From the NCBI GenBank assembly GCA_903830915.1, contig CAIKVR010000030.1:1-59221 (forward strand): 59,221 bases of DNA, given 5' to 3'. The first letter of the stretch is position 1; every line of letters begins with the position of its first letter. The stretch comes from an uncultured Bacteroidales bacterium. Its GTDB lineage: Bacteria > Bacteroidota > Bacteroidia > Bacteroidales > Paludibacteraceae. The notes beneath the pieces were generated by a model. The model was not told the origin of the DNA, ran no database searches, and saw only the letters and a program-made list of their open reading frames with translations. Of the stretch, positions 23,925 to 51,804 are shown in pieces. Position numbers and translations under genes: made by a program.

Positions 23925-23989
23925 CAAAAATAAACCTTTTCGTTATTTAAAAACCATATTATTTGAACATAAGATGATACTTTTTCTAC
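23925..23989 (-). promoter_or_regulatory. GH130 operon promoter with shared 35-bp activator element
   Basis: -7 box TATTTTTG on the minus strand (23932-23925), no clear -33 box, and the shared element at 23955-23989. On the + strand the element has CATAT, 14 bp, then ATGATACTTTTTCTAC at 23974-23989. The distance from element to -7 box is 22 bp. Predicted transcription start is about 23918, giving a leader of roughly 40 nt. Confidence 0.75.
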
Positions 23990-23996
23990 TTAAAAA

Positions 23997-24030
23997 AGAG
24001 GTTGGATGTAATGTAATACAACCAACCTCT
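23997..24030 (-). terminator. Terminator of the SusCD operon
   Basis: 9-bp stem AGAGGTTGG / CCAACCTCT with a short inner TGT/ACA pairing, followed on the minus strand by six T's (23997-23992). It closes the susC-susD-lipoprotein-CBM9 unit only 8 bp before the regulatory element of the GH130 operon, so the two are separate transcripts. Confidence 0.82.
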
Positions 24031-24065
24031 ATAATTTCAAATTACAAAACTTCAGTATTTAAATA

Positions 24066-25193
24066 CTAGCGAATGAATTTTTGTGATTGATTATTAGCAC
24101 GTACGATGTAAGCACCTTTTGACAAGTTAGAAATGTTTACGCTAGTTGCATTCTTTACATTAATAATTTGTTTTCCAACAGTATTATAAACAGTTACATT
24201 AGCAGGTGTGCTTAATTCGATATTGTTTGCAGTAATTTTTGCAAAGTCAACCGTTTTTAAATCATTTACTGCAGATGGAGCTGCAGGTTTCAAGAATCCA
24301 GCATAGAAATTAGCTTGCCAGCAATCATTGCTGGTTGTATTCCACCAGTATTCTGCAGGTTTTGCAACTGGAGTAGCATCAGTATTCAATGCATCGTCAG
24401 CATCAGTATCATTCACTTTCAAATCGAAAGAGATACCTTTACCACCATTTAAACCAGCCCAAATAGTTTTGTTGAAATTTGGACGATAAGTTCCTGTAAG
24501 AACAGGATAACCAATAGAAATAATCCATTTTACAGTTTTAGAAGCCGGAGCAGTTTTATCATCAACAAACAAGTTGTTTGTCAAAGTAGGAGTTGTACCA
24601 CCCCAGTTGATTGATCCAACACCAGCATCAGTAAAGTTAATCATCATGGCAGCATCAAAACCGGTCTTTTTAAAAGTAAGTTTATTAGCGCCAAATTGAT
24701 TATAGCGATCGTACCAAGCATTATGTTCGTTATACCAAGTTCCAGCTGCACGATCTGTTGCATCCAATTTTAAATAAGGAGATAAACAAACTTCAGCAGT
24801 TTCTGTACCTGTTACGTCATCATCTGTCCATTGTAATAAAATGTACATATTGTTGTCATCGTACAAAGTTTTAAATGAACCGGTAAAGTCAGCAGCACCA
24901 TTTTCAGAACCAGCAAGACCAAGTCTTTTGCCAGGAGCACCCAAAACATATGCTGTACCTGCACTTGCCCATGCAGCATCAAAATTAGCCGTAGCCGCAT
25001 CAAAATTTGCAACCACAGTTGCATCAGCCTGAGCTCTTGGATAGGCATCAATACCTACTGCAGGAGCAGCGGCACCAGCAAACCATCCTTCGATAGGGAA
25101 TACCCAGTTAGCTACTGCGGCATTGTCTGCCTGTCCAAACACACTCGATACACTTAATAGAGCTATCGAAACGAAAGTAAATAATGTTTTCAT
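24066..25193 (-). CDS. Secreted CBM9/DOMON-like protein with T9SS sorting domain
   Basis: Probable surface carbohydrate-binding protein. 375 residues: signal peptide (MKTLFTFVSIALLSVSSVFGQ), a beta-sandwich of about 280 residues with the CBM9/DOMON-type signature FKTLYDDNNMYILLQWTDDD, many Trp and Tyr residues that could bind sugar (TWYNEHNAWYDRYNQFG, AEYWWNTTSNDCW), and a T9SS C-terminal domain (about 305-375; VNISNLSKGAYIVRANNQSQ). It is the last gene of the susC operon, where a surface glycan-binding protein is expected, and its stop lies 36 bp before a strong terminator. A heme-binding ethylbenzene-dehydrogenase-like relative of the fold is an alternative, but I see no heme motif. Confidence 0.75.
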   Translation of the reverse strand: MKTLFTFVSIALLSVSSVFGQADNAAVANWVFPIEGWFAGAAAPAVGIDAYPRAQADATVVANFDAATANFDAAWASAGTAYVLGAPGKRLGLAGSENGAADFTGSFKTLYDDNNMYILLQWTDDDVTGTETAEVCLSPYLKLDATDRAAGTWYNEHNAWYDRYNQFGANKLTFKKTGFDAAMMINFTDAGVGSINWGGTTPTLTNNLFVDDKTAPASKTVKWIISIGYPVLTGTYRPNFNKTIWAGLNGGKGISFDLKVNDTDADDALNTDATPVAKPAEYWWNTTSNDCWQANFYAGFLKPAAPSAVNDLKTVDFAKITANNIELSTPANVTVYNTVGKQIINVKNATSVNISNLSKGAYIVRANNQSQKFIR

Positions 25194-25299
25194 AAATGTG
25201 AAAATTAAATTGTTAGTTAAAAAAATGTTTGTATTGAAAAATAATTAAGAGAATTATAAACTTGCAATACGTCTATCGCAAATTATGGGATTAATAATA

Positions 25300-26316
25300 T
25301 TAATTGGTTACATTTACAGAGTAGATTTCCTCCGTTTTGTTTTGGGCTATAACCTTTATCGTTTTAACTTGATTTGAACCAGTATTGGTCATATTATAGG
25401 CTGTTCTATCGCTGAAATTTGAATAAGCAAGAACACCTGACGTTTCTCTTCCAACCTGAATAGTTGTAAAATTATCGGCTTGAAGTACTAGTCTTACTCC
25501 TGTGAGAGTAGTTCCAGTAAGAGCTTTGATTGTAACAGTTTTAGCCGTTTGGTCAATGACTCCCTTTTCGCCTTTACCATTAACGCCAAATTCAAACTTG
25601 ATCAATTTCTTTTCGTTCGACGATGGCACTAATTTCACTTGTACTACATAATCTTTCACATTTCCATAATCAGCTGTCACACTATATTTAACCGATCCCA
25701 GTGAGGGGTTAAAATCATTTTCGGTAACGTTAGTTAGTTGCAATACATTATTTACGCGCACTTTAGCACTGTCTGAATCGAGCTGATAAGCTGGTTTAAA
25801 TTTGAAATTTGTTATTGCATCAGGAATTGAAATGAGAATAGAATCATGTGAGAAAACACCTGCAACATATTGACTGACAACTCCCAATTCGGGTACTGTA
25901 ACTACAAATTGTTTAATTGAATTACGCATATCAATTACATTTACATCGTAGCTAACCACTTTGCGAATCACTTCAGCACCTACCTTGGCAGAACTCGAAG
26001 ATACAAGAGTAACCTTGTATTTTCCATCAATATTGTAAGTAATTCCAAGTGAGTCTGCTCTATCGAAATCTACACCTTTTGCTCCCACTTCGCCATAAAC
26101 TGCGCCCGGTTTTCCATCGTAAAGCGATACAAACTCAGCAGTTCCTTTGCGAACTATATAAACTGGAGTACCTGCAAGTGCATTAATCTGACCATCTCTG
26201 ACATAAGATAATTGAAATTCAGGTTTCACCGGCATTACGCTTTCCTCAGAACATGAAACAAGTCCAAAAGCAAGAATTGTGTACAGAAATAAAATTGATT
26301 TATAAATGATTTTCAT
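25300..26316 (-). CDS. Surface lipoprotein at the SusE position
   Basis: Predicted outer-membrane lipoprotein that probably helps bind glycan next to SusD. 338 residues with lipobox GLVSC (C22). The mature part appears to be three beta-rich modules: an N-terminal Ig-like domain (about 25-125; FQLSYVRDGQINALAGTPVY) and two repeats resembling DUF5018-type domains, with IKQFVVTVPELG and KLIKFEFGVNGKGEKGVID at their starts. No enzyme motif is seen. It follows susD by 30 bp. Sequence is too divergent for me to name a glycan; the binding role is inferred from position. Confidence 0.72.
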   Translation of the reverse strand: MKIIYKSILFLYTILAFGLVSCSEESVMPVKPEFQLSYVRDGQINALAGTPVYIVRKGTAEFVSLYDGKPGAVYGEVGAKGVDFDRADSLGITYNIDGKYKVTLVSSSSAKVGAEVIRKVVSYDVNVIDMRNSIKQFVVTVPELGVVSQYVAGVFSHDSILISIPDAITNFKFKPAYQLDSDSAKVRVNNVLQLTNVTENDFNPSLGSVKYSVTADYGNVKDYVVQVKLVPSSNEKKLIKFEFGVNGKGEKGVIDQTAKTVTIKALTGTTLTGVRLVLQADNFTTIQVGRETSGVLAYSNFSDRTAYNMTNTGSNQVKTIKVIAQNKTEEIYSVNVTN

Positions 26317-26346
26317 AAAATATCGTATTTAATATATTAAAGTAAA

Positions 26347-27996
26347 TTACCAACCCGGATTTTGTTTTAACGTCCCTTTATTAGCATCAATCTCAGCCTG
26401 AGGTATTGGAAAATACAGATTTTTTGGTTTACTGAATTGACCATTAAACATTTTAACCAAGTCATTTGGGAATCTGCTATCAAATGTCCAGCGAATTATG
26501 TCGTTGTAATGATGTCCTTCGGTAGCAAGCTCTACAGCACGTTCGTGAACAATGGCAGCAGGAGTTAAAGCTGCAATTGCAGGCATTCCAGCCCTGTCTC
26601 TTACCAAATTTAGTGCAGTTAATCCGCTTCCATCAGCATCTGCATCTTTTAAGAATGAAGATTCAGCATACATTAATAATACATCAGCATATCTAATTAC
26701 TCGAATATTTATAGGCGATGTGTTTGGTGATTTATCTACCCATTGTGGATAATAGTATTTTTTCATACCAAAAGCTTTTGTTGGTAGAACTGAAGCTCCA
26801 GTGTATAAGTTATTATTTGAAACTATCATTTTAGAATGAATGGCACTTTGAAATGGTTTATTTTGGCCAGAGGAAACTCTCCAATCCAATGTATCACCAT
26901 CTAAATAACAAGTAGCATGTGCTCTTGGGTCTCTGTCGTAACCTGCTGGTGCTCCAGCAGTTTCAAATTCAAACCACAACGAAGGATCAATTTCTTGATT
27001 TTTATAACCTAACGGTGAAAAGTATGCTGATAAAAGATTACCTCCCCATTGCCATCCTGGCAACCAACCTGCAGCTGCTCTATTATCGTCGTTAAATTGT
27101 ATTTCCCAAACTGATTCTTTGTTGTTTTCGGCTTTGTAGATAGTATTACCAACAGGAATATCGAGGTAAGAATAATTTGAAAGTAACGCCCCCTGATAAT
27201 TGGCTTTGTCTTTTGTTACCGGAGTAATCAAGTGATAATTTCCATCGTCAATTACCGTTTTCAGAGCAGCTTTTGCTTTATCCAAATTAACCGTAGCTTC
27301 TGCAGTAGAACCTTTTCCAAAACGAAGATAATAATGATAATGTTTGAATAGTAAAGCTTTACCTAATTGAGCACTGGCAGCACCTTTGGTAATTCTACCG
27401 GTTTCGGACGAAGGCCAGGATGCAGGTAAATTAGCAGCCGCAAAAGTTAAATCTTCTTCTAATTTGTTCCAAAATTGCTCCGGTGTTCCGTTTACTAATC
27501 CAATACGTGGATCCACAGGTACATTGGTTTCATCGTAATAGATAGGTGCATTGAACCAAGTTACCAAATAGAAATAATACATGCCTCTTAATGCTCGCAC
27601 CTGAGCTTGAGCTTGGAGATAATCAGCCGGTTTTACCAAATCTTTTACTTTACCCATATTGGCAAGTATATCAGATGTTCTAAATAATCCAACATATAAT
27701 GCTCCCCAAGTATCCTGAAAATCGGAACTATTCATAACCAATTGGTCCATACCACCTTTTGGATTTTCGAACCAAATATATGGATCTAACGTGTTGATTA
27801 TGAACGAATACTTTAGACCAAACATTCCATAATGAGCAAGCGGAGTATAGGCAGCATTCACAGCTAATGTTAAATCGTTTTCAGATTTAAAAAATGAATT
27901 TGAATCTAAGTTGTTTTTGCTTTCTGTATCCAGAAATGCATCCGAACAGGCTGAGAAAACTACAACAGAAATAAATATAAATAGCAACTTTTTCAT
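26347..27996 (-). CDS. SusD/RagB family glycan-binding lipoprotein
   Basis: Outer-membrane lipoprotein that closes over the SusC channel as a lid and captures oligosaccharides. 549 residues, lipobox VVFSAC (C17), and the SusD N-terminal pattern of helical TPR repeats (LTLAVNAAYTPLAHYG, QAQVRALRGMYYFYLVTWF). C-terminal signatures are RYADVLLMYAESS, LNLVRDRAG and YFPIPQAEIDANKG. It starts 30 bp after susC and ends 30 bp before the lipoprotein gene. Intact. Confidence 0.96.
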   Translation of the reverse strand: MKKLLFIFISVVVFSACSDAFLDTESKNNLDSNSFFKSENDLTLAVNAAYTPLAHYGMFGLKYSFIINTLDPYIWFENPKGGMDQLVMNSSDFQDTWGALYVGLFRTSDILANMGKVKDLVKPADYLQAQAQVRALRGMYYFYLVTWFNAPIYYDETNVPVDPRIGLVNGTPEQFWNKLEEDLTFAAANLPASWPSSETGRITKGAASAQLGKALLFKHYHYYLRFGKGSTAEATVNLDKAKAALKTVIDDGNYHLITPVTKDKANYQGALLSNYSYLDIPVGNTIYKAENNKESVWEIQFNDDNRAAAGWLPGWQWGGNLLSAYFSPLGYKNQEIDPSLWFEFETAGAPAGYDRDPRAHATCYLDGDTLDWRVSSGQNKPFQSAIHSKMIVSNNNLYTGASVLPTKAFGMKKYYYPQWVDKSPNTSPINIRVIRYADVLLMYAESSFLKDADADGSGLTALNLVRDRAGMPAIAALTPAAIVHERAVELATEGHHYNDIIRWTFDSRFPNDLVKMFNGQFSKPKNLYFPIPQAEIDANKGTLKQNPGW

Positions 27997-28026
27997 ATTA
28001 GTATATTCTTTTCTTTATTTTTAAAA

Positions 28027-31000
28027 TTAAAATCCAATTTGCAAACCACCTGTAAATGAGCGAGGTATTGAATAATCACCGCTATCTGTACCAGATGATA
28101 ATGGGTTTCCTGACATAAAACCTTCGGGATCTCTACCTTTATAAGCAGTGAAGCAATACAGATTTGATGCATTAGCATAAACCCTTACACTTCCTAGTCC
28201 TAACTTAGTACATATTTTTTTCGAAAGCGTATAGCCAACTTGTATATCCTTAATTCGTAGAAACGAACCATCTTCAACCCAAAATGAAGATAATTGATCG
28301 TTTGCATTTTTATTGGCTAAGTCCACCCGTACATGAGTTGTCGAAGCATTTGCTTCTGTCCAATAATTTTGAGCAAAATCATTCAGCTTGTTGTGATCCA
28401 TATCCTGACTATTCATGCTCGACATGCTGGCTCTTTGTTGATTGAAAATTTGGAAATCATTTACACCAAATAAGAACATATTAAAATCAAACCCTTTATA
28501 GGCACAATCAAATCCGACAGTATAAGTAAAACTTGGAATAGTTTTTCCAATAATTGTTTTATCCAATGCATCCACATTGCCATTGCCTGTAAGGTCTTTA
28601 TACCTTATATCTCCGGGTTGAGGCGTGTTGGTTAAGTAAGTAGCGTATTTATAACCTGTATATAAGCCTGTTACAGGATCTTTTCCGCCAGTAAAATCGC
28701 TGGTTTGAATAATACCATCCGCAGCATACCCATATATTGCACCAATAGAATGTCCTACCATTGTTCTATTATTTGTGCCAACTATAGGTATATTGTTTGG
28801 TAAATAAAGGACTTCATTTTTAATCGTTGTAAAATTTGTATTTACACCATAGCTAAAATCGCCAATTTGGTCTTTCCATTGTAAAGAGATTTCAACACCG
28901 CGATTTTGAATATTTCCGGAATTGAAATAAGGAGCAGCATCTACACGTCCAAAAGCAGATGAAGGCGTTTGCGCTATTAACAAGTCATTGTTGTTTTTGA
29001 TATAATATTCGGCACTACCCTGAATTTTGCTATTAAATAAGCTAAAATCAAGCCCGAAGTTATACATTTCTGCAGTTTCCCATTTAATTGTAGAAGAACC
29101 CATTCCATAAAACACATATTGAGCACGTTCAATGTGTTGGTCATCACCAAACACCGGTGAGAAATTGTTCGGATCTGTTATTTTATTCAAATAATTTAGA
29201 CTTGACACAAAACCATCGCCTAAGTCGCTACCCATATTTGAATTTCCTGTTTGTCCCCAACCAATACGAAGTTTCAATGCATCTATTTCTTTAACATTTT
29301 GGAAGAAATCTTCATTTATTTTCCATGCGAATGAAGCTGCTGAGAAAGTACCTCGTTTGTTGCCAGGAGCAAATGAATAAATACCATCAGAACGAACAGA
29401 ACCTGTAAAGAAGTATTTGCCCTTGTAGTCATACATTACCCTTGCTAAGTACGACAACATTCGTGCTTCGGCAGTTCTTCCGGAAATGCTTTTTGAAACT
29501 GTTCCTCCATTTGAAAGCGTATTGAGTTGTTCAAAGTCAAAACCATTTTCAGTTGCTCCCATATCGTTAAACATCCCTGCATGAACCTGATAAACGCCTG
29601 TTGCAAGCAAATTATGATCATCGTTAAATTTCTTTTTAAAAGTAAGTTGTTGCTCCAAATTAAGATTTACAATTTCCTTATAACTCTCAGTCAAACTTGC
29701 TTGGTTCGATGAACGGTTACCTGCAAACTGGGGCATCCAATTTTTTGTTCTACCATACATAATCTCGGCCGAAGGTGTTACTTTATACATTAACCAATCA
29801 GTAAAATCGATTTGAAGATACACACTGGCATTTGTTCCTAAATTGAAATTTTTATCAGAACCCATTGATGGTGCAGCATAAGGATTTGGCTTGTCGTTTC
29901 CAACCGTATTTGAATAAGTTGCCTGACCGGTATAACCAGCGGTTCCCAATTGTAAATTCCCAGCTGCATCTTCCCAATAGGCCGACGAAGGCGATTCAAA
30001 ACCACCTCTATAATAAGGATTGTTAAGCTTCATCAAAGGAGATGTATTCAAGTCCCAGATAGACGATTGTACCATAACCGGTTGTTCCCCACTCTTATAA
30101 GTTACACTTAGGTTTTCGCCAATTTTGATATGTTTGCTGAGTTTAAAATCGGAATTGGCACGTATAGAATAACGATCGGCATTGCTTTTAATCACATTTC
30201 CGTCATCTTTCATATATCCCAATGAAACACTAAAGTTGCTGTTTTCACCACCACCGGCTATGGATAAATTATGGTTTTGATTCAACCCATTTTTGAATAG
30301 TAGATCTTGCCAGTTAGTACCTTGCTCCCAACCAGTTCCATAATATTTTTGACGAAATTCCGGAGAAAAAGCATAAGCGGGATTTGTAACTGTTTCGTTC
30401 TTGCTATTAACGTAGGTTTTTCCCAAACCATAAGTACTGTATTTGGTAGAAGTATAAAAGTCAGCATACTGTTGAGCATTCATTACATCATATTGTTTTG
30501 GAGCCATATTTACACCTACAAAACTATTCAGGTTTACTTGTACTTTGCCCGATTTACCACGTTTAGTGGTTACAATAATAACCCCATTTGAACCATTGGC
30601 ACCATAAATAGCAGCAGCTGAAGCATCTTTCAATACTTGTAAACTTTCAATATCGCTCGGTTGAAGACTTTCAATATTAGATACTTGAACACCATCTAAA
30701 ATGTAGATTGGATCAGCACTATTGTTGATGGAACCTACTCCTCGAACTCGTATGGTAGCACCACCTCCAGGTTTACCGCTTTGTGTAACTACAACACCTG
30801 GAGCTTTGCCTTGAAGTGCTTGAGCTGCACTAGCCGAAGGGTTTTTATTCAAGTCCTTAGAGGTAACTACTGCAACAGATCCTGTTAAATCAGATTTTTT
30901 TACTACACCATAACCAATGGCAACAACTTCTGATAGTTGTACTGAACTAGTTTTCAGTGTGATATTGATAGTGGTTTTATCTCCAACTTCAATTTCTTGT

Positions 31001-31251
31001 TTTTCCAATCCTATATACGAAAAAACTAAAATGTCTTTTGGAGAAGCATTAATGGTAAATTTACCATTAATATCAGTAATAGTTCCAGTTGTGCCTCCTT
31101 TTACTGCTACTGTGCCACCAATTAATGGTTCATTTGCGCTGCCATCCATAACAATTCCTGTTACTGATTTTTGGGCAAATAGTTGTGGAGCAATTAAAAG
31201 TGTTATTGTGAGTAGGCATACTCTAACAAATTTAAGAAAAGAATGATTCAT
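28027..31251 (-). CDS. SusC/RagA TonB-dependent outer-membrane transporter
   Basis: TonB-dependent channel importing oligosaccharides across the outer membrane with SusD. 1074 residues: signal peptide (to about residue 26), a carboxypeptidase-D-like extension (about 28-110; GIVMDGSANEPLIGGTVAVK), the plug domain (about 120-230) with PGVVVTQSGKPGGGATIRVRG and the SusC signature YGANGSNGVIIVTTKRGKSG, then a 22-strand barrel ending YSIPRSFTGGLQIGF. It has no sigma/anti-sigma N-terminal signalling extension, so regulation is likely through a separate regulator. First gene of the four-gene operon; its promoter carries the shared 35-bp element and gives a leader of about 210 nt. Confidence 0.97.
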   Translation of the reverse strand: MNHSFLKFVRVCLLTITLLIAPQLFAQKSVTGIVMDGSANEPLIGGTVAVKGGTTGTITDINGKFTINASPKDILVFSYIGLEKQEIEVGDKTTINITLKTSSVQLSEVVAIGYGVVKKSDLTGSVAVVTSKDLNKNPSASAAQALQGKAPGVVVTQSGKPGGGATIRVRGVGSINNSADPIYILDGVQVSNIESLQPSDIESLQVLKDASAAAIYGANGSNGVIIVTTKRGKSGKVQVNLNSFVGVNMAPKQYDVMNAQQYADFYTSTKYSTYGLGKTYVNSKNETVTNPAYAFSPEFRQKYYGTGWEQGTNWQDLLFKNGLNQNHNLSIAGGGENSNFSVSLGYMKDDGNVIKSNADRYSIRANSDFKLSKHIKIGENLSVTYKSGEQPVMVQSSIWDLNTSPLMKLNNPYYRGGFESPSSAYWEDAAGNLQLGTAGYTGQATYSNTVGNDKPNPYAAPSMGSDKNFNLGTNASVYLQIDFTDWLMYKVTPSAEIMYGRTKNWMPQFAGNRSSNQASLTESYKEIVNLNLEQQLTFKKKFNDDHNLLATGVYQVHAGMFNDMGATENGFDFEQLNTLSNGGTVSKSISGRTAEARMLSYLARVMYDYKGKYFFTGSVRSDGIYSFAPGNKRGTFSAASFAWKINEDFFQNVKEIDALKLRIGWGQTGNSNMGSDLGDGFVSSLNYLNKITDPNNFSPVFGDDQHIERAQYVFYGMGSSTIKWETAEMYNFGLDFSLFNSKIQGSAEYYIKNNNDLLIAQTPSSAFGRVDAAPYFNSGNIQNRGVEISLQWKDQIGDFSYGVNTNFTTIKNEVLYLPNNIPIVGTNNRTMVGHSIGAIYGYAADGIIQTSDFTGGKDPVTGLYTGYKYATYLTNTPQPGDIRYKDLTGNGNVDALDKTIIGKTIPSFTYTVGFDCAYKGFDFNMFLFGVNDFQIFNQQRASMSSMNSQDMDHNKLNDFAQNYWTEANASTTHVRVDLANKNANDQLSSFWVEDGSFLRIKDIQVGYTLSKKICTKLGLGSVRVYANASNLYCFTAYKGRDPEGFMSGNPLSSGTDSGDYSIPRSFTGGLQIGF

Positions 31252-31677
31252 ATTATATTAAATTTATATGTTTTTGCTTGAATAAAAATTGCAAACTATT
31301 TTATTTGCCGATTATTAAAATTTGAAAAACGAGATTACTAAAGTTAACTGCTTGAAAAAATTACAATTTCACTTGGATTAAACTTCAATTTATTATAAAA
31401 AGGACTTTAAATTTTGAAATTTAGCGCTTTTGAATAATTGTATTGAAAAATAAACAAATTCGATAATGCAAAAATAGACTATATTAAACATACAATAATC
31501 ATATTTTTTTATCCTAACATGATACTTTTTCTACAAAATATAGGTTGTAATAGTGAAAATTTAGTGTCTTCAATTTATCATTAAATATATAAGAATATTA
31601 ATCTTTCTGTTTGATTAGCCGTACTGGTCTAATTATTAAACAATTAGTCTATTGCACCTTGTCTTCTCCAGAATTTA
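31252..31677. other. Intergenic region between susC and GH116
   Basis: It holds the long susC leader (31252 to about 31462), the promoter and the 35-bp element. The rest (31535-31677) lies just past the end of the GH116 operon and shows only a weak 6-bp inverted repeat (CTAATT/AATTAG near 31625-31650) that could end that transcript. I see no small ORF of interest. Confidence 0.5.
31469..31534 (-). promoter_or_regulatory. susC promoter with shared 35-bp activator element
   Basis: -7 box TATTTTTG on the minus strand (31476-31469) and the shared element at 31500-31534 (core ATGATACTTTTTCTAC at 31519-31534). The spacing from element to -7 box is 23 bp. No convincing -33 TTTG, which suggests that the promoter depends on an activator. 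Confidence 0.75.
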
Positions 31678-34308
31678 TTACCTAAAAAGAATACTGGAAC
31701 CACTTCTTATAGTAATTTCTTTTGATAGTGTTATGATATATTTTCCATCAATAAATTTAATTTTAGCAGCTTTTATCTGATTGTCACCTACATAAAGCGA
31801 CGGTTTTTTGTTTTTAATACCCGAATTTTCAAATTCAAGTTTCGAAAAAGTCATTTCGCCGGTTTTCACTTCAATCTGAATAGAATTCACTTCCTTTTTG
31901 TAAATGGCAGTTCCTGCTGGTGTTGTAAAGAACATGTTGAAAGTGTCTTTTTTTATTTTCGGATTAAAGCTATAAGTTCCACGGTTAATTGAATAGCCCA
32001 AAAAAGCATTCATAATAGACCATGCTGCCATGGGACGATAATAATGTCCACCAAACTCTTGATGATCAAAGTACAATCCGGCTTTTCGATACCGATTATC
32101 CACACCTTTTATCACTTTTAATCCATCGTCCACCATATTCTCGTAGATAAGAAATGACGCAAAAGCTAATTCCACTCCAGTCCAGGGTGTGTTGGCCTGA
32201 TCCACCCACAAATCGGATGTTTGTATGGGAAAAAAATCGGGATGCGCCGGCCATGAGCAGTTGCGCAAAAATGAATTGTCCATAAACGATTTGTCCATAA
32301 TGGATTTAAGAGACTTTTGAACATTGTTTTTATCAAAAATATATCCTATACCGACATTATGGGCTACCCACTGACCTATTAACTGATCTGTAAGACAACC
32401 ATCATCTACCCCTTTTTTTCCTAAATAATCGTTTGACAAATTGTAATAAGACCCGTTCCAAAGTTTTTGCTCCATCAGTTTAGAACCTTTTTGGGCAATT
32501 TCTTTGTATTGTTTTTCGAGTTTGGATTCCCCCATTTCAGCTGCTACTTCGGCTGCCAAGGTCAACGCATTTATCCATTGCGATTGTAGGTAGGAAGCCA
32601 ATCCATACATCGGAAAATTATCGTAACTACACATAATGCCACTCATATCCGGCATTTGGTCACCATCTTTATCACGTTTGGTAAGCATGTAGTTAATGCC
32701 GAGTTTTACCGACGGCCACATTTCGCGGATATAATTTTTATCATTTGTCCACAAAAAATCGCGCAATACCATTTGAATAAAATTGGGAACCAAATCCACA
32801 CGGTCATACACGCCCCAAGTGCCATTTTGATTAAAATCCATATCGTAGCCCAATCCGTGGTTGATTTCACCGTCTTTGGTTTGAAGCTTGGCATGCGATC
32901 GCATACTGGCTTTTTGAAGCTCGGGAAACAAGCCAATAATCATGGGCGAAGCATACAGCGAAACGTCGGAAGTTATATTTGGGCCCCACGACTGTGAAGA
33001 TGTTAATCCTTCGCGAATGGCAAAATTACCTTCCTTGGTAAGTGTTGATGAGGAAACAAAAGTATTGAGCTGTGAATTTACTTGGTCCAACACAAACTGA
33101 TCAATATCAGATGCGTACATATCATTTACAAACTGATGACTTTTTGCTGATAAATCGTCAACTTGCGTAGCAAGATAAGCTGCTGTGGCATTGATATCCG
33201 TAAAATAATTTTGATAATACAAGCCCATGTTTTTGGTTTGCTTCACACCAATTTGTTTGCGTACATCAATACATTTTGTAGTGTCTTTTTTGTTGTGATT
33301 TTCAATTCCGCCATAATTATTGGGGAAGTTCCAATTCATAAAAAAAGTGGAAGAAAATTCCTTACCCGGTTGTAATTTTTGAGAAACGGCAATGGAACTA
33401 AAGCAGCGCTGATCATTCCTTCCGTTGGCAATTTTTTTGCCTTCTTTATTGGTCGAATTTCTACTTTGTGTGTCATCAATATTGGCCAATTTATTTTCAA
33501 CCATAAGCTTTTCGTAATAGGGGTGTTTGTGTTCCCAACCCAAATAATACGAAACTTCGTCGCCACCAATTACGCCTAATCCCATTTGACCATAACTGGA
33601 TGTTTTTTCGTCCATTCCGGAAGCCGATTGAGCAAAGAATTTGTAGCTTTTTTCATTCACCAATGTTGCTTCAAAAGCCTTGTCTTGCGTATCGTAGCCC
33701 ACCAAGTTGCGCAATGAACCCAACAACATCACATCTACATTTTTGTCGGTTTTGGATTTAATTTTGAAATTGAAATACACCCCAGGCAAGGCCGAATTTT
33801 TTACATCGAAAGGAATAAAAGGCGAAAAGGCTTCCAATTCAATATCGAAAGGCATTTCAGCATCCGAGAACTTCATATTGGTGAATGGGAATCGGGCCGA
33901 ATATTCAATTTTATCCACTGCACTCATCCACGGATAATAATAAATAATACCTTCCTGACCACCTTCTTGCAGACTATTATTCAGTTGCAATAATTTTAAT
34001 TGTGGTTTTGCACCTTCCACTTGATAGCGCACCAAAAAGAATAAAAAGCTTTGATCTTCAAATGTTTTAGGTTTCGTTGGAAGTTCAAAAATAGGACCAG
34101 TACCACGTGGATAATTATTGAATATAGACCAGTTGTAAAAATTTCCATCTTTGCGTAATTCTATGCTACCTGTACCAATACCACCCATGGAAATACCGCT
34201 TCGCACGCGGGACGCTGCTGAGTAAGTTTCAATTACTGGAGACTTTGCCGTTTGAGCAAAAGAAAAGAATGAACATGAAAGAAGGAGGATTAGCAATGTG
34301 TGTTTCAT
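31678..34308 (-). CDS. GH116-like glycoside hydrolase (GBA2 type)
   Basis: Exported enzyme related to GH116 beta-glucosidases/beta-xylosidases and mammalian GBA2. From the ATG at 34308 it has 876 residues with a signal peptide (MKHTLLILLLSCSFFSFAQ); a longer start at 34368 would place 20 residues ahead of it and is rejected. N-terminal beta-sandwich motif GISMGGIGTGSIELRKDG. The (alpha/alpha)6 catalytic part has HGLGYDMDF, MCSYDNFPMYGLASYLQSQW, NTPWTGVELAFASFLIYE and HYYRPMAAWSIMNAFLG, all matching conserved GH116 stretches. Last gene of the esterase-GH2-esterase-GH97 operon. It probably trims terminal beta-linked sugars; the exact substrate is unknown. Confidence 0.82.
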   Translation of the reverse strand: MKHTLLILLLSCSFFSFAQTAKSPVIETYSAASRVRSGISMGGIGTGSIELRKDGNFYNWSIFNNYPRGTGPIFELPTKPKTFEDQSFLFFLVRYQVEGAKPQLKLLQLNNSLQEGGQEGIIYYYPWMSAVDKIEYSARFPFTNMKFSDAEMPFDIELEAFSPFIPFDVKNSALPGVYFNFKIKSKTDKNVDVMLLGSLRNLVGYDTQDKAFEATLVNEKSYKFFAQSASGMDEKTSSYGQMGLGVIGGDEVSYYLGWEHKHPYYEKLMVENKLANIDDTQSRNSTNKEGKKIANGRNDQRCFSSIAVSQKLQPGKEFSSTFFMNWNFPNNYGGIENHNKKDTTKCIDVRKQIGVKQTKNMGLYYQNYFTDINATAAYLATQVDDLSAKSHQFVNDMYASDIDQFVLDQVNSQLNTFVSSSTLTKEGNFAIREGLTSSQSWGPNITSDVSLYASPMIIGLFPELQKASMRSHAKLQTKDGEINHGLGYDMDFNQNGTWGVYDRVDLVPNFIQMVLRDFLWTNDKNYIREMWPSVKLGINYMLTKRDKDGDQMPDMSGIMCSYDNFPMYGLASYLQSQWINALTLAAEVAAEMGESKLEKQYKEIAQKGSKLMEQKLWNGSYYNLSNDYLGKKGVDDGCLTDQLIGQWVAHNVGIGYIFDKNNVQKSLKSIMDKSFMDNSFLRNCSWPAHPDFFPIQTSDLWVDQANTPWTGVELAFASFLIYENMVDDGLKVIKGVDNRYRKAGLYFDHQEFGGHYYRPMAAWSIMNAFLGYSINRGTYSFNPKIKKDTFNMFFTTPAGTAIYKKEVNSIQIEVKTGEMTFSKLEFENSGIKNKKPSLYVGDNQIKAAKIKFIDGKYIITLSKEITIRSGSSILFR

Positions 34309-34372
34309 AAAAAATAAGAAATAATATTTAGAAATAAGTTCATAGTTTAATTTAATCAATACTTGCATAGTT

Positions 34373-34392
34373 CCCCTTTAGGGGCTAGGGGC
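34373..34392. repeat. C-rich/G-rich palindromic repeat, copy 2
   Basis: CCCCTTTAGGGGCTAGGGGC in the GH97-GH116 gap, related to the element at 22497-22520 in reverse orientation. Confidence 0.6.
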
Positions 34393-34398
34393 TTTTTG

Positions 34399-36372: not shown

Positions 36373-36388
36373 ATTTACTCTGTTTTAA

Positions 36389-37357: not shown

Positions 37358-37387
37358 ATTCAAAATTTTAATCAATAATAATTTCCA

Positions 37388-39613: not shown

Positions 39614-39671
39614 CTTATTCTTTTTTATGCGCAATATCCTGTTTTCTTTTAAAAACTATGATATTTTCAAT

Positions 39672-40507: not shown

Positions 40508-40572
40508 CAAAAATACAGCTTTATAATATGCAAAAATCATATATATTTATCCATACATGATACTATTTCTAC
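40508..40572 (-). promoter_or_regulatory. Esterase-GH2-GH97-GH116 operon promoter with shared element
   Basis: -7 box TATTTTTG on the minus strand (40515-40508) and the shared element at 40538-40572 (core ATGATACTATTTCTAC at 40557-40572, one base different from the other three copies). Spacing to the -7 box is 22 bp. Confidence 0.75.
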
Positions 40573-40825: not shown

Positions 40826-41710
40826 TTAAATCAGTTTTCTCATTTTAGCATAATTTTCACGAAATTCCTTTGGTGTACTACCTTTTCGCTTTTTAAAAAT
40901 GCGATTAAAATTAGATAGATTATTGAATCCACATTCGTACGTAATTTCAGCTACAGATTTATTTGAGTTTACTAAAAGGCGTGAAGCAATTCCCAAACGT
41001 AAATCATTGAGGTATTCCACAAAGTTTTTGCCGGTTCGCTTTTTCATAAAACGACTAAATGACACTTCCGACATCCCTATATAATCAGCCATTTCATGTA
41101 AATGTACTTCTTTTTGGTAGTTGGCTTGTAAATAATTCACAACTTTTTGGATCCGTCGACTTTCAGATGAATCCTTTTCGTTAGTAAATGTACTGTTGCA
41201 AAGTGTTCGAGCATTCTCGTCAAGGGATAACTCGTGCAATATCATTATTAACTCGATAACAGAATTGAAACTTGATTTATTGGTGGTTAAAGAATTTAAT
41301 TTATCTTTCACTTTCAGAATGACTTCACGCGAAAAAACGATTCCTTTTTTTGCATTTTCGAACATTATTGATAATGATTGAAACTGTTTTTTATTGAGTA
41401 AACTTTGAAGAAACAAATCACTGTGAAATTGAATGGTGATTTCGTGAAGAGGAGAATCAGGATGGTCCAAATCGACCCAACCATGCTCTAAGTTTCCGTT
41501 TCCAATCAAACAGAGTTCCAAGTCATCAATTATTTCCGTAGAATCACCAATAATCCGCCGAGCTCCCTTGGCGTTTTCCATGAAATTTAGTTCATATTCA
41601 GGATGTACATGCACAGGGTACGTGAATTTTGTTTTTGTTCTGTCAATAATTACAAAACAATCCTCACTTGAAAGAGGTGTGATTTCGCGATATATTTCAG
41701 TAACTTCCAT
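40826..41710 (-). CDS. AraC-family transcriptional regulator
   Basis: 294-residue cytoplasmic regulator. The N-terminal cupin-like ligand-binding domain (residues 1-150) has YPVHVHPEYELNFM; the C-terminal AraC DNA-binding domain (about 190-290) has two helix-turn-helix units (LHEMADYIGMSEVSFSRFMK; ITYECGFNNLSNFNRIFKKR) and the family end GSTPKEFRENY. It is a single-component regulator, not a hybrid two-component system. It lies between the PUL and region 3 on the same strand, with its own promoter and terminator, and is the only regulator in the window. It is therefore the leading but unproven candidate to bind the shared 35-bp elements. The regulator's own promoter lacks that element. Confidence 0.93.
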   Translation of the reverse strand: MEVTEIYREITPLSSEDCFVIIDRTKTKFTYPVHVHPEYELNFMENAKGARRIIGDSTEIIDDLELCLIGNGNLEHGWVDLDHPDSPLHEITIQFHSDLFLQSLLNKKQFQSLSIMFENAKKGIVFSREVILKVKDKLNSLTTNKSSFNSVIELIMILHELSLDENARTLCNSTFTNEKDSSESRRIQKVVNYLQANYQKEVHLHEMADYIGMSEVSFSRFMKKRTGKNFVEYLNDLRLGIASRLLVNSNKSVAEITYECGFNNLSNFNRIFKKRKGSTPKEFRENYAKMRKLI

Positions 41711-45472: not shown

Positions 45473-45504
45473 AGGGAAAGAAATTGATATTTTGATTTTA
45501 AAAA

Positions 45505-45533: not shown

Positions 45534-45554
45534 CATGAAAAACTAAACACCACC

Positions 45555-48500
45555 TTATTGACGAATAAGTCTTATTGTTTGACTTTGTGTCTTCATTTTA
45601 ACTGTTACAAAATAGATTCCTTTTGACAAATGATTTACTGAAAGTTTAAAATTGTTTGTTTGATTGGATACCGATTGTTGTTGAACAATTCTGCCCGACA
45701 AATCGGTAATGATAACCTGATCAGCCGTTTCGTTATCCAAATTTATATTGATAAAATCGGTTGCCGGATTTGGATACAAACTCAATACAGTTTTCTTTAC
45801 ATTATTTAAAGCAGTAAATTCTTTAACTGTAACAGTGAATGCAATTGTTGTTTCATCAACTCCTCCTGCGGCAACACCACCATCATCTTTTACTTTAACC
45901 GTAACGGTAGTAGTGCCTAATGCAACTGGCGTGATTTTTAAATCGGCAGTAGAACCATTGGTATTTAGAACTGACACATTAGCAATAGCTGTATTGCTTG
46001 ATGTAGCAGTAACCGAAGTTACATTTTGTGCTACCACATCTGCACCATAACCAATACCAGTGAGCGTAACCACTTTATCACCTTCAGACAATACCACACT
46101 TTGGTTGGCCGGTTGGTCAATTGACGGAGCAGCATTTGATAATGAATGGTACAATGTAGTTATGCTACGTGGTGCTAATAAGAGTGTTCCATCAGTTACA
46201 TTTTGGCCTTTTACAAATGCAGCGGCATTTTGTGTCGTATATTTTTCGTACAATACGGGCACATTAGCACCGGCAAGTGTTACTTTTACTGGTTTACTGC
46301 TTGTATTAAGTAGTATTACTGTATTGGAATTATCGACATTATTAAAAGCAAGACTCAACACATTGCTATTGTTTGCTGTAGCATTTACCATAACCGAACC
46401 AGGACCGATGAATTTAGAATAGTTTTTGAAAACACTTCCTAATAAATCAAATTTACTTTTATCCATTGGTCTATCAAAATCTGTCCAACCACTAATATTA
46501 CCATTTTTAAATGATGTGTACATAGAACCTGCAAAATCTAATGGGCCTGGAGAGTAAATCTTACCTCCCAATAAATAATCGATAATCATTTCACCCTCCC
46601 AAACATTTGAATAGCCAGATGTTTCGGTCATCCACAATCCTTCGGCAGCAGTCGTTTTTTGGAATGCCAACAAACTACTCCATGCTGAAGCACCAGCTCC
46701 ACCTGCTTTAATACCATCTGGGTCGTAAAGGTGGCAAGCAACTATCCCAAGATAGCTATTGGCAACAGCATCGGCTTGTGTAGCGCCTACATTGGCCTGT
46801 ACCCAACCCATTTGATTTACATCTTCCGACAACATAATACGAGTCGTCAATCCTTCCGCTTTCATGCGTGGGCCTACTACTTTTATCAATTCTCTAAATT
46901 CATTACCATTATATTGGCACGAAACATAAGGCTCGTTGAATGTAGGTTCGTTTTGTAAGCTTATGGAATATAATTCCACCCCTGCCTCTTGTTTTACTGT
47001 TTGGCAAATAGCAACAATAAATTCAGCAAATTCATCATACATCTCTGGTTTCAGTCTATTGTTGGCAGCAAATTGTGTATCCGTATCCGGAAAGCCAGCT
47101 TTATTTTGTTTCATCCAAGAAGGTGGAGTCCAAACAGTATAATTGAATTTGTGACAATTTGTATTCTCATTGATATTTCGAATTGTAGCCAAAGGCAAAA
47201 TGCTCTTTTTGAAACCATTGTAATTTGTCACAGTTGGATCGGCATTGTCATTCACCGGTTCAAATTCTGAATTTCCTTCGCTTGTAAATCTTAATGCCGT
47301 AATATTAAAGTCTTTAATGGCTTGAATTTGTGCATCACTATTGTCATGTTGCAGGAAACAGCCAATACCGCCTATAGTTTGGTAGGTAGTTGATAATCCT
47401 ATGGTTACTGTACTTGCTGTAACTATAGATTTGTCAACAACATAAATTTTGAATATAGTTGTATCGGGAATAGAAGTTGCCACAGCTACGTTTTTAGCAA
47501 TTACAGTTACGATAGCTGAATCGGCCACTCCGGGAGCTACACTATAATTAAGCGTGGCTGTTCCGTCGGCAATTGCTCCAACTGTTAAGCTTGTAATTAA
47601 CGATGGTTTGTTACTTGTAGCGGTGATGGTGGCTGATTTATTACCCGAACCATCCGAAATACCCGACATTAGAATTGTTTTTGGCGCATCACCAACATAC
47701 AAGGTTTGATTCGGAATATTATTAATAGTGGCCTTTGGTGCAGGGATAGGTAAATCGGCCATATCGCCCAATTTCAGGTCTTTAAAAATTACATCAACTG
47801 TTTCTTCTTTGAAATAAGTAAGGTTGATATCAAGCATAACTCGTGAAATACGGGTACTATCGGTGCTTTTTGTAACTCCTGCCACCACTTTTGAGAATTT
47901 TCCTGTAAAATCCAGGTAGTAATCGTGCCACTTATCATCATTTGGAACATTCAATCCGATAGCAGAAACGGTATAGCCGCTTGGACTATTGGCATCAAAA
48001 CTTGGAGCAATATTATCAATTAAACGGAACGTGATTACAGTTTCGGCCAAGGGTTTCCCTTCGGATAAAGTGGTAGATGCACTTTTTAGTTTAAAGCTAA
48101 CTCTTTTGTTTGCCGAAATATCCAACTCTTTACCTCCAGTCAACGTTTTTAAATCAAAATATGAAGAAGGGAAGTTGTAAGCTAATACTTTACCTGTAAT
48201 ATGTGTACTGTTATCAGAACCAAATGTTATTACGCCATTTGTAAGGTCTGTTCGAACCCCCGAAGCAACTACATTCGATATGTAAGGCACATAATTGGTA
48301 GCAATTCCATTTACTGGAGGTATTATAGAAGTTAGTAGAAATGTACGACTGAATGATTGATTGCCATTATTTCCGGCATTTCCACCATTATCGGTAGCTT
48401 TGATGGTAATAGTAGTAGTTCCTGCAACACCTGTTTTAGCAAAACTCAACGTTGCAACGCCATTTACAACCGGGCCTACCGAAAGATTTGTAACAATGTC

Positions 48501-51464
48501 GATATTACTAGCTGTAGCTTCAAAAGTCAATGTTTGATTTGATTTGTCGCCATCCGATATTCCCGTAAGTTGTATATTATCATTCGCAACTTCTGCTTTT
48601 ATACTTTTTGCTGGTATAGAATCAATAGTTGGTTTGTTATTTATATCTTCGTAAACCGATACCGTAAATGTAGTAATTCCGGTATCAACGCCACTCGCAG
48701 CAACGCCTCCGTTGTCTTTTGAAGTAACAGTAACCATAGGAATACTTCCAATAGCTGCTAAAGCGGATGCTTTAAGGGTTATTGTTCCTACAAAATCGGT
48801 TGGATTATGCGCAACCGTTACTGATGTTAGGACATCGGTATTGGAGCTTGCAGCAGTAATGGTAATACCTTGTGTTGATTCGGGATTATTATCGCTAATA
48901 TTGTTTAGCCCCAGAGTCAAAGTTTGACCCCTTTTCATCAATACGTTTGGTATTGGCTGCATACTCGGAGCTGCATTTGGTACAACTTTGACTTTAAATG
49001 TCATTACTTTAGGCGTAGTGTTGGCAGCCGAAACGGTTACAGAAATTACTGATTCACCCGTTGCTAGCACATTTGGATTTAACACCAACGAGCCAGTACC
49101 TGCAGGTGAAATATAATTCACTGTCGGGTTTGGAATTACAGCGGTATTTGAACTTGTAGCCGTAATGCTTATCGGATTTGTACCTGTACTTCCATCGGTT
49201 ACATTGCGGAAATTAACTGTACGACTTGCTGTTCCGGTACCTTGGGCTGTAAAAACCTGATCTTGAATTGTAGCAATTGCCGGGGTATGAACAGCAAGAT
49301 CTCCAATTTTGACATCATCAAAATAAATTTCTTTATTAGGTGCATCGCCAAAAAGACTGGAAAGTGGGTTTAAAACAAAGTGAAGATTATTAGCCGTTTG
49401 CAAAGCGGTTAAAGGTATTCCGGTATAATCGAACGAATATTCCTGAAATACATCTGAAGCAACAATTTCTTGAGCGCCAGCTTGCAATATATTATTAAAC
49501 TTCAATGGGTAATTATCAATTTTACCGCTTGCATTTCCTACGGCTAACGAGATATTGAAATCAAAGTTGGATTTAATTTTCATACTTACATAAGGTACAG
49601 TAGAAATATCAATTTGAGTCGGAGAGAACTTCAAATCAAAACCATCCCAAACACCTGACTTTTTAGGAATTATTTTCAGCATTCCTCCCGCTTCGGTTAA
49701 GCTATAACTACCTTTTGTCCAATTGGTAAGCACGTTATCGTTGAAGTTTTCGAAAAATCCAAGACTTCCAACGGTATATGCAGGCGTGGTTACATCCAAA
49801 GCAATGCTTTGAGGCGACGTAAGGCCCGCTAAATCTTTAGCTACTACCGTGAAAGAGTAATTAGTTGAAGGCGTTAAGCCAGAAATACTCATCGAATTTG
49901 TAGTAGTAGTTCCACAGGATATTGAACCACCTCTAAATACTTCGTACGATGCTACTCCAACATTGTCGGTGGCTGCAGGCCAAGTTAATGTAAGACCTAT
50001 TGAAGCTAAATTTGAAGCTACAGGCACTCCAGGCGCAGATGGTGCCACTTCGTCAATCGCATTTACTATTAATTCTTTTACACTTAATGGAACTGTCATA
50101 TCGGCTATTTGACCAATAATACGAATTCCTTTGATTGCTGTTGTGATTTTTGGACCTGTAAGCATGTAAGTTTGGTTTGCAGCACCCGAACCCAAGGCAG
50201 GATAAGCAGGAACAAAAGTCCAATCGGCTACATTTACCCAATCGTTAGCTACAGCACCACCACTTACAGAGGTTTGTATTACTGGTGCCACTGCACCACT
50301 AAACACGCCACTACCACCAATGAATTTCACACTTATAATGTCGGTTTTAGCTGTAGCCCACACTATACCTACGCCTTGGTAACGATTGTTGGCTGTCATG
50401 TTTGTGAAGGCTACATTTGTTGTAATATCGCCATCGTTCACACCAGGGCTAGCTATAATGGTATTATTTGTACCGGCATTCGCTGCATTTGGCCATATAT
50501 TACCTACTCCTATGGGAGCAATATTAATACCGGTAGGAACATGAATACTCGTAGTTACAGGCAAAGCTGCACTTGCATCCGAAACTTTGCCAGATGCATC
50601 CGACGCTTTAACTGTAAATGAATATGCAGTGGATGCCGTTAAGCCTGCAATATCTAAAGACGTATTGGCAGTAGTACCACAAGAAGTAGTACCATTTTTA
50701 AAAACTTCGTACGAAGTAACGCCAACATCATCTGTTGATGCAGTCCAAGATAAGGTAAGACTATTTTCAGTAATACTAGAGGCTACCAGACCAGAAGGGG
50801 CAGTAGGAGGTGCTAAATCGGGAGCAGTAACTGTGCCATTTACAATAAAGTCACTTGAGGCACTTGCATTGTGCATACCAAATCCCATATCATTCCAATA
50901 CACGTCAGTGGCTGCGAAAATATAGATCCTAAACGTTACAGCTGAGGTTAAACCGGCATGTCCTGTAACAGGAAAATTTTGTAATGCGATATTGACATTA
51001 TTAGCAGCACCGGTAGTGATGGCAGAAATTTGATTTGCCGCAGTGAAACCGTTTATACTCGACAGCAAGCTAAAAGTACATACTTGGCTATTCGTCAGAG
51101 CACATACATCTATAGAGGAAATAGTTAAACTTTTGCCGGCATTTGGTGTAATGGTGAATTCATAATACTGATTTTTGGTAATGGCCTGAGCCAGCGTAGT
51201 GCCATTCATACCATAACTGGAAAGGGCGTTTGGAGAATAATAACCAGGATTTGCTTTTAATCCGGATGCTATTACCAGATTTGAAACAGTCGCATTTGCA
51301 TTGCTCGTAGTTGGAGCTGCAGTAGCCCTTGTTTCTTTGTTAGGATTCCAGTTGGCAAAATTCCAGGTAGCAATCTGCTCGGAAAATACAACACTGGAGC
51401 TAATAAAAGCTATTGCCAAAAAGAGTAATCTGGCAACTTGCATTGAATTGAGTAATTTTTTCAT
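45555..51464 (-). CDS. Giant multimodular GH30 hydrolase with T9SS sorting domain
   Basis: 1969 residues from the ATG at 51464; an in-frame ATG at 51494 would add ten residues before the signal peptide. Order of modules: signal peptide; N-terminal module (about 30-215) opening ATWNFANWNP; FnIII; discoidin-like domain; FnIII; two beta-sandwich modules resembling CBMs (each ending IYFDDVKIGD or DVIFKDLKLGD) set among Ig/cadherin-like repeats; a GH30 TIM barrel (about 1385-1690) with its beta side domain; one more Ig-like repeat; T9SS type-A domain at the C-terminus. Catalytic Glu1506 is in SLQNEPTF (acid/base) and Glu1614 in WMTETSG (nucleophile). GH30 activities include glucuronoxylanase and beta-1,6-glucanase; the barrel looks xylanase-like, but this is not decisive. 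Its promoter carries the shared 35-bp element. Confidence 0.88.
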   Translation of the reverse strand: MKKLLNSMQVARLLFLAIAFISSSVVFSEQIATWNFANWNPNKETRATAAPTTSNANATVSNLVIASGLKANPGYYSPNALSSYGMNGTTLAQAITKNQYYEFTITPNAGKSLTISSIDVCALTNSQVCTFSLLSSINGFTAANQISAITTGAANNVNIALQNFPVTGHAGLTSAVTFRIYIFAATDVYWNDMGFGMHNASASSDFIVNGTVTAPDLAPPTAPSGLVASSITENSLTLSWTASTDDVGVTSYEVFKNGTTSCGTTANTSLDIAGLTASTAYSFTVKASDASGKVSDASAALPVTTSIHVPTGINIAPIGVGNIWPNAANAGTNNTIIASPGVNDGDITTNVAFTNMTANNRYQGVGIVWATAKTDIISVKFIGGSGVFSGAVAPVIQTSVSGGAVANDWVNVADWTFVPAYPALGSGAANQTYMLTGPKITTAIKGIRIIGQIADMTVPLSVKELIVNAIDEVAPSAPGVPVASNLASIGLTLTWPAATDNVGVASYEVFRGGSISCGTTTTNSMSISGLTPSTNYSFTVVAKDLAGLTSPQSIALDVTTPAYTVGSLGFFENFNDNVLTNWTKGSYSLTEAGGMLKIIPKKSGVWDGFDLKFSPTQIDISTVPYVSMKIKSNFDFNISLAVGNASGKIDNYPLKFNNILQAGAQEIVASDVFQEYSFDYTGIPLTALQTANNLHFVLNPLSSLFGDAPNKEIYFDDVKIGDLAVHTPAIATIQDQVFTAQGTGTASRTVNFRNVTDGSTGTNPISITATSSNTAVIPNPTVNYISPAGTGSLVLNPNVLATGESVISVTVSAANTTPKVMTFKVKVVPNAAPSMQPIPNVLMKRGQTLTLGLNNISDNNPESTQGITITAASSNTDVLTSVTVAHNPTDFVGTITLKASALAAIGSIPMVTVTSKDNGGVAASGVDTGITTFTVSVYEDINNKPTIDSIPAKSIKAEVANDNIQLTGISDGDKSNQTLTFEATASNIDIVTNLSVGPVVNGVATLSFAKTGVAGTTTITIKATDNGGNAGNNGNQSFSRTFLLTSIIPPVNGIATNYVPYISNVVASGVRTDLTNGVITFGSDNSTHITGKVLAYNFPSSYFDLKTLTGGKELDISANKRVSFKLKSASTTLSEGKPLAETVITFRLIDNIAPSFDANSPSGYTVSAIGLNVPNDDKWHDYYLDFTGKFSKVVAGVTKSTDSTRISRVMLDINLTYFKEETVDVIFKDLKLGDMADLPIPAPKATINNIPNQTLYVGDAPKTILMSGISDGSGNKSATITATSNKPSLITSLTVGAIADGTATLNYSVAPGVADSAIVTVIAKNVAVATSIPDTTIFKIYVVDKSIVTASTVTIGLSTTYQTIGGIGCFLQHDNSDAQIQAIKDFNITALRFTSEGNSEFEPVNDNADPTVTNYNGFKKSILPLATIRNINENTNCHKFNYTVWTPPSWMKQNKAGFPDTDTQFAANNRLKPEMYDEFAEFIVAICQTVKQEAGVELYSISLQNEPTFNEPYVSCQYNGNEFRELIKVVGPRMKAEGLTTRIMLSEDVNQMGWVQANVGATQADAVANSYLGIVACHLYDPDGIKAGGAGASAWSSLLAFQKTTAAEGLWMTETSGYSNVWEGEMIIDYLLGGKIYSPGPLDFAGSMYTSFKNGNISGWTDFDRPMDKSKFDLLGSVFKNYSKFIGPGSVMVNATANNSNVLSLAFNNVDNSNTVILLNTSSKPVKVTLAGANVPVLYEKYTTQNAAAFVKGQNVTDGTLLLAPRSITTLYHSLSNAAPSIDQPANQSVVLSEGDKVVTLTGIGYGADVVAQNVTSVTATSSNTAIANVSVLNTNGSTADLKITPVALGTTTVTVKVKDDGGVAAGGVDETTIAFTVTVKEFTALNNVKKTVLSLYPNPATDFININLDNETADQVIITDLSGRIVQQQSVSNQTNNFKLSVNHLSKGIYFVTVKMKTQSQTIRLIRQ

Positions 51465-51804
51465 TTGATTTATATTTAAGATTGTTTTAATCATTTTTTT
51501 TGCTTTAATGTGACTTTATAATTCACATTGCATTTTAACTGTCATTAAAATAGTAAATTACACAAGTAAATTTTAGAATAATGACTCATTAAAAGTTTCA
51601 ACAACTTGAAGTTTGCAAATATAGCCTATCTTAGAGTCATAAATACATATTTTATTATCCAACTATGATACTTTTTCTACATTTTATCAGTACAAATCCG
51701 CTAAATCAGCGTTCCATTTCTTAGTTTTAAAATATAAAGTTAATTAAATCAGATATATACAATTTATATAATACCTATTGGAAATTGGAAATTAAAACTG
51801 AGTT
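51465..51804. other. Intergenic region upstream of the GH30 gene
   Basis: It contains the leader, promoter and 35-bp element of the GH30 gene, then about 120 AT-rich bases before the stop of the next gene. I see no clear terminator hairpin for the 51805-54561 gene here, so some read-through into GH30 is possible. Confidence 0.5.
51616..51680 (-). promoter_or_regulatory. GH30 gene promoter with shared 35-bp activator element
   Basis: -7 box TATATTTG on the minus strand (51623-51616) and the shared element at 51646-51680 (core ATGATACTTTTTCTAC at 51665-51680). Spacing is 22 bp. Predicted leader of about 145 nt. This copy lies 11 kb from the nearest other one, beyond the decayed cluster. Confidence 0.75.

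Follow-up and report, generated by a model that had tools for sequence, protein, structure and literature searches.

The 59,221 bp window analyzed in this study, contig CAIKVR010000030.1 (C30) of the uncultured Bacteroidales assembly GCA_903830915.1 (Paludibacteraceae), carries a polysaccharide utilization locus (PUL) in which four copies of a conserved element precede a promoter box at an almost constant distance. We propose that each copy is an operator of the AraC-family protein encoded at 40826-41710 on the minus strand, and that this protein binds the repeat and activates both this PUL and a second gene cluster on contig C436 of the same genome. The probability of this reading is put at roughly 0.83.

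Architecture of the element and its distance to the promoter box

A sequence-only reading of the window had described a 35 bp element on the plus strand, consisting of CATAT, 14 variable bases, and a 16-base core. Copies were confirmed at 23955-23989, 31500-31534, 40538-40572, and 51646-51680 (0.01 expected by chance), with the core exact in three of them and changed at one base in the copy at 40538-40572. The four-copy element is thus real, but its length is 37 bp, two bases more than described, and CATAT and the TATCC motif, both present on the plus strand, are parts of a second half-site. Read in transcript orientation from the aligned sites, the element is GTMGAAAWAGTATCAT-N5-GATARAAAAATATGAT, a direct repeat of 16 + 5 + 16 bp with a period of 21 bp and a better conserved distal half.

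The distal and proximal half-sites, all on the minus strand, are located at 23974-23989 and 23953-23968 upstream of the GH130 gene (site 1), at 31519-31534 and 31498-31513 upstream of SusC (site 2), at 40557-40572, which contains the single core change, and 40536-40551 upstream of the esterase gene (site 3), and at 51665-51680 and 51644-51659 upstream of the GH30-like gene (site 4).

The specificity of the element was analyzed by pattern and matrix searches. With up to three mismatches, the core alone matched six places in the window (1.19 expected). Many stray matches elsewhere in the genome would speak against a shared operator, as the sequence-only reading had pointed out; CATAT-N14-core with up to two mismatches was found at only these four places in the 4.74 Mb genome (87% complete), leaving that reading unrefuted, and the reversed pattern had no match in the same genome. 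A 40-column weight matrix built from 21 sites, the four window sites among them, gave these four 45.8-56.6 bits, compared with 8.0 bits for the next position in the window. The strict pattern overlooks further sites on C436, at 34279, 9228 (weak), 3975, and 318. With one mismatch, the 16-base core alone gave six matches in its own genome against none in the reversed control, and 34 against 29 when counts were summed over 60 genomes, indicating that the core by itself is unspecific across genomes and that specificity comes from the two-half architecture. Core matches without a second half (L105-L108, L110, L113-L115, L122, L123, L125, L126, and L130) were dismissed as chance.

For comparison within the genus, model R1 was built from 21 sites, of which 18 came from pattern searches blind to AraC and three from AraC loci (two from L036 and one from L033). 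Together with the window, 40 fetched stretches, chosen for R1 matches or AraC and not representing whole genomes, yielded 43 distinct sites of at least 24 bits. All 43 lay outside open reading frames (ORFs) of at least 150 aa, a measure by which 4-14% of the sequence was intergenic in six stretches measured; 42 faced a gene on the same strand, at a distance of up to 400 bp in 37 cases, and the remaining site ran off the contig end. The column correlation between the two halves was highest at a distance of 21 bp (0.56; runner-up 0.30). This peak led us to reject the earlier proposal that two GTA words 9 bp apart within the core form an AraC-type double site; the two words may be the contacts of both helix-turn-helix (HTH) motifs of one subunit.

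As had been claimed, a TAnnTTTG -7 box follows the 35-mer after 22, 23, 22, and 22 bp, the 23 bp distance belonging to the SusC copy. The boxes are located on the minus strand at 23925-23932, 31469-31476, and 40508-40515 (TATTTTTG at sites 1, 2, and 3) and at 51616-51623 (TATATTTG at site 4). The reported lack of a good -33 box was also borne out: TTG occurred at -24 to -22 from the box at none of the four sites, and at -19 or -18 at two of them. Across the genus, a box with at most one mismatch was present at 43 of 43 sites (41 with a distance of 22 bp, two with 23 bp) and was exact at 39, and TTG at -24 to -22 was present at one. Because the 21 model sites had been picked by hand from core matches showing a second half, their boxes are not independent, and the other 22 sites provide the fair test. 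Among these, the box was exact in 18 and had at most one mismatch in all 22, as compared with 0 exact boxes and 27 with up to one mismatch at 1978 off-register positions. The promoters therefore have the TAnnTTTG at -7 of the Bacteroidota primary sigma factor and lack its TTG or TTTG at about -33. This comparative evidence supports the earlier suggestion that the element is an activator site adjoining, on the upstream side, a promoter without a -33 element, with the geometry corrected.

The AraC-family regulator and its co-occurrence with the site

The proposed binder, a 294 aa protein, was the only AraC-type regulator found in the window. Its C-terminal part contains the double HTH domain (Pfam HTH_18, 1.7e-23; HTH_AraC, 2.1e-12), and Foldseek matched isolated AraC-type domains with a root-mean-square deviation of 1.2-2.5 for most. 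The N-terminal part had no Pfam match. An AlphaFold2 model (mean pLDDT 83.5, pTM 0.68) showed an N-terminal part resembling a cupin and a C-terminal domain of the AraC type, with predicted strands at residues 19-95 and helices thereafter. The cupin-like part modestly matched the regulatory domains of AraC (2arc) and RhaR (5u93) (E 5e-4 to 1e-3, TMt 0.52-0.67), and the best whole-chain structure matches were AraC-family proteins (TMq about 0.4). Elsewhere in the genome, two contig-end pieces (C411:3-521, L203; C204:7011-7396, L204) span most of an AraC paralog with 41-43% identity, possibly a second, parallel regulator; C204 additionally carries a GH130-like gene (28%).

We searched 36 genomes of the same genus and 24 others with R1; as in the R2 searches described below, filters could drop weak matches. 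At E <= 1e-5, sites were present in 13 of the 36 genus genomes and in none of the 24 others. AraC orthologs with at least 64% identity were found in 14 of the 36, counting a 103 aa end fragment in G019; homologs below 56% (49-55% in G006, G010, and G022, and weaker ones) and a 79 aa fragment with stops in G024 were not counted. Site and AraC occurred together in 12 genomes, AraC alone in two (G013 and G029), the site alone in one (G030), and neither in 21 (Fisher test, 8.7e-7). The corresponding values were 1.4e-3 for GH130 (17 of 36 genomes) and 3.4e-3 for a SusC of the window type (5 of 36; at least 59% identity, 12 best candidates scored per genome); none of these tests takes the relatedness of the genomes into account. 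AraC was also present in all three site-bearing genomes that had contributed no training site (G025, G027, and G033). In G037 and G057, SusC was 59-68% identical, and neither an AraC ortholog nor a site was found at the thresholds used. In G016, G005, G027, G033, G017, G019, and G025, the SusC downstream of the site has only 30-38% identity. The co-occurrence of the site with AraC therefore persists where the SusC/D system differs. These comparisons support the sequence-only reading in taking the gene at 40826-41710 as the candidate binder of the four sites.

A related repeat was found beside more distant araC genes. In 67 loci whose AraC proteins were 42-54% identical, the half-site GATAAAATAATATTA occurred 80 times with up to two mismatches. 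A box lay 20-23 bp downstream of 44 of the 80 (40 at 21 bp), distributed over 34 loci and in the same register as in the window, whereas 60 permuted patterns gave 1887 matches, of which 29 had a box in register. The distal half also repeats at 21 bp in the distant set (0.71, 31 distinct sites); neither this repeat nor the box spacing had been a selection criterion. The genus and distant matrices correlated at 0.54 in the same register and at 0.41 at the next shift, and none of 20,000 column shuffles reached the former value. The stronger half is the distal one in the genus of the window and the proximal one in the distant set. When 12 distant genomes were searched with model R2, built from the 31 distant sites, 14 matches had E <= 0.005, all within the fetched araC stretches and 10 of them training sites; among the next 10 (E 0.016-0.038), four lay inside araC stretches, one 2.4 kb outside, and five elsewhere. 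Of 80 AraC loci, 46 contained GH130; among the 56 that are at least 19 kb long, the count was 39. In two Flavobacterium loci (L087 10921-10956 and L103 10918-10953), both half-sites fit the same 15-mer with up to two mismatches and are 21 bp apart; the box at the usual distance is exact in L087 and lacking in L103.

Several observations weigh against this reading. The proximal half of site 1 is poor, the poorest of the four. G030 (82% complete) has two sites and no AraC that could be found, and the fragmented genomes G013 and G029 (87% and 89% complete) have AraC and no site. One R1 match, G016 575040 (E = 7e-5), lies within a susC frame and is probably due to chance. The genomes and loci are related, and the p-values therefore overstate independence. 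In the distant set, the pattern was first spotted through its score with the genus matrix, and the likeness of the two sets is thus partly built in; a single permuted pattern supplied 27 of the 29 control boxes; and R2 recovered none of the sites in the window at E <= 1, implying that the letters have drifted while the geometry was kept.

We suggest that the two 16 bp half-sites, 21 bp or two helical turns apart and so on one face of the DNA, would be bound by an AraC dimer, one subunit per half-site, in response to a sugar signal detected by the cupin-like domain. A breakdown product of manno-oligosaccharides might be the ligand. The proximal half would end about 20 bp before TAnnTTTG, at the place of the -33 element; the bound dimer would therefore replace the missing -33 contact and recruit RNA polymerase carrying the primary sigma factor. 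In this way, one protein would turn on the GH130, SusC, esterase/GH2/GH97/GH116, and GH30 units and the cluster on C436.

Other possible binders and roles

The strongest alternative is that the binder is a hybrid two-component system (HTCS) whose gene lies in another part of the genome. DNA-binding domains of the AraC type also occur in HTCSs, for which direct-repeat motifs with an average period of 21 bp have been predicted; the motif of HTCS_Man, with 16 bp sites and a 5 bp spacer, agrees with the 16 + 5 + 16 bp element in geometry, the comparison covering geometry and not letters (PMC3878776). In the own genome, HTH_18 matched 22 times at E <= 1e-10; 10 of these matches fall within open frames of HTCS size (1137-1469 aa). 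G033 encodes a full HTCS of 1380 aa (L181 10889-15031) 2.7 kb from its AraC-type site, and some PULs may thus carry both regulators; in the beta-mannan PUL of Muricauda, an AraC and an HTCS are found together (PMC9860051). However, the 21 bp repeat is common to one-component AraC proteins too and is not decisive for an HTCS. The window contained no homolog of the full G033 HTCS used as the query, C436 had no HTH_18 match, and among the 34 distant loci with a site, which extend no farther than 10 kb from araC, one contained a homolog of the G033 protein. The regulator at 40826-41710, with 294 aa and only the HTH, does not have the fused periplasmic sensor, histidine kinase, and receiver of an HTCS. 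An ORF of 1347 aa at 54754-58797, considered as an HTCS, turned out to be a Big_2/fn3 protein. Moreover, where the PULs differ between genomes, the sites still follow the AraC ortholog, the one regulator for which co-occurrence was compared. We therefore regard binding by an HTCS as unlikely.

It is also conceivable that the AraC protein binds the sites chiefly as a repressor, or keeps the promoters shut when sugar is absent. AraC-type proteins are capable of both activation and repression, and arabinose-free AraC holds promoters off. In 22 of the 67 distant loci, the site lies within 250 bp of araC, between it and the divergent direction of transcription. In contrast, where a site extends up to the -33 position and TTG is absent from its usual place in all but 1 of 43 cases, the arrangement is that of an activator, and, as judged from these promoter-proximal sites, a mainly repressing role seems very improbable. 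If the element were instead the extended core promoter of some alternative sigma factor, the rigid 22 bp distance to the box would be accounted for, but this scarcely deserves credence: the box has the usual TAnnTTTG of the primary sigma factor, the 21 bp repeat and the co-occurrence with AraC are left unexplained, and we know of no sigma element with a 37 bp upstream extension.

Predicted regulon and relation to known systems

In agreement with the sequence-only reading, all four sites are intergenic and precede the genes for GH130, SusC, the esterase, and a giant protein with a C-terminal GH30 domain. The units, all on the minus strand and annotated with Pfam, have predicted extents, based for unit 1 on strand and spacing. 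Unit 1 (12569-23879) encodes GH130, an epimerase-like protein, an AXE1 esterase, an MFS_2 transporter, GH3, and GH94; unit 2 (24066-31251) encodes SusC, SusD, a 338 aa protein, and a protein with a type IX secretion system (T9SS) tail; and unit 3 (31678-40442) encodes an esterase, GH2, a BD-FAE esterase, GH97, and GH116. Unit 4 starts with a 1979 aa protein (45555-51494) with fn3, the GH30 domain, and a T9SS tail, much of which is without a Pfam match at E <= 1e-5. The pair of a SusC-type receptor (Plug and CarbopepD_reg) and SusD, accompanied by GH130, GH94, GH3, GH116, GH97, GH2, and esterases, identifies the locus as a PUL. No site was found ahead of araC itself in the matrix scan of the window.

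The units are probably switched on together, and the comparative evidence supports joining the distant GH30 gene to the regulon, as had been proposed. The four further sites on C436, one of them weak, extend the predicted regulon beyond a single PUL; genes there encode GH78, GH28, GH125, GH13, GH27, and GDSL esterases. GH130, the epimerase-like protein, GH2, and the esterases tentatively suggest mannan or glucomannan as the glycan; C436 holds families of the pectin type.

C30 and C436 have no common end sequence, and their adjacency is thus unproven. A gene cut at the window end (58860-59189, minus strand) encodes a T9SS tail, and at the beginning of C436 (1-318, L165) a gene of the same direction starts behind a site; the two may be one gene, with ends that do not overlap. 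Conjugative-transposon genes lie by the cluster in the window (TraG-type ATPase and TraQ, at 2359-4872 and 10496-10957, plus strand) and on C436 (a DUF3945/DUF4099/Toprim_Crpt protein, 35233-36594, L166). The PUL and the C436 cluster could be cargo of a single mobile element.

Direct-repeat operators and AraC-type PUL regulators are already known. In E. coli, AraC binds the direct-repeat half-sites I1 and I2 of araBAD, which are spaced by 21 bp; the proximal half-site extends into the -35 region. The present element, compared at the promoter-proximal repeat, shares the two half-sites and their 21 bp distance and differs in promoter class. The HTCS and SusR regulons of Bacteroides were reconstructed by comparative genomics, and HTCS motifs proved to be direct repeats with a 21 bp period (PMC3878776). 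As here, a direct repeat of about that period is shared by PUL operon heads, the DNA-binding domain is of the AraC type, and distant genes were joined to a regulon through the motif (PMC3878776). Whereas an HTCS is a membrane protein, the binder proposed here is a one-component AraC protein with a cupin-like sensor. In Muricauda sp. MAR_2010_75, mannans induce the beta-mannan PUL as one unit; this PUL likewise combines GH130 with an expressed AraC-type factor, FG28_RS02325; no operator is described in the available text, in which the word "promoter" does not occur (PMC9860051). Our sequence comparison was made with the protein of Allomuricauda profundi (L098, 44-45% identity) and not with FG28_RS02325. 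CgrA of Zobellia galactanivorans is an AraC-family regulator of a carrageenan regulon, and after its deletion, growth on the polysaccharide was reduced and set in with a lag (PMC5698469). It resembles the present regulator as an AraC-family PUL regulator of Bacteroidota with distal genes in the same response, a likeness by description and not by sequence; it serves another glycan, and the passages available describe no operator motif (PMC5698469).

No prior account of this operator was recognized in the open-licence literature searched (titles, abstract starts, and passages, with RegPrecise outside the search). Within that literature, three things appear to be new: the pairing of this regulator with this operator, the constant distance to the promoter in distant Bacteroidota, and the persistence of the pair when SusC/D was exchanged. 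To our knowledge, the operator is not known for many PUL regulators. Here, the regulator, operator, promoter spacing, and targets can all be read from sequence. As a search tool, the predicted operator connects genes that lie beyond the PUL with the same response, and it reveals shared control among PULs with different transporters. With slightly better than even odds, AraC and its operator would form a long-standing module of the Bacteroidota, kept in a fixed geometry while the PUL under its control, with its SusC/D pair and enzyme sets, was exchanged, and a single regulator would command several clusters per genome.

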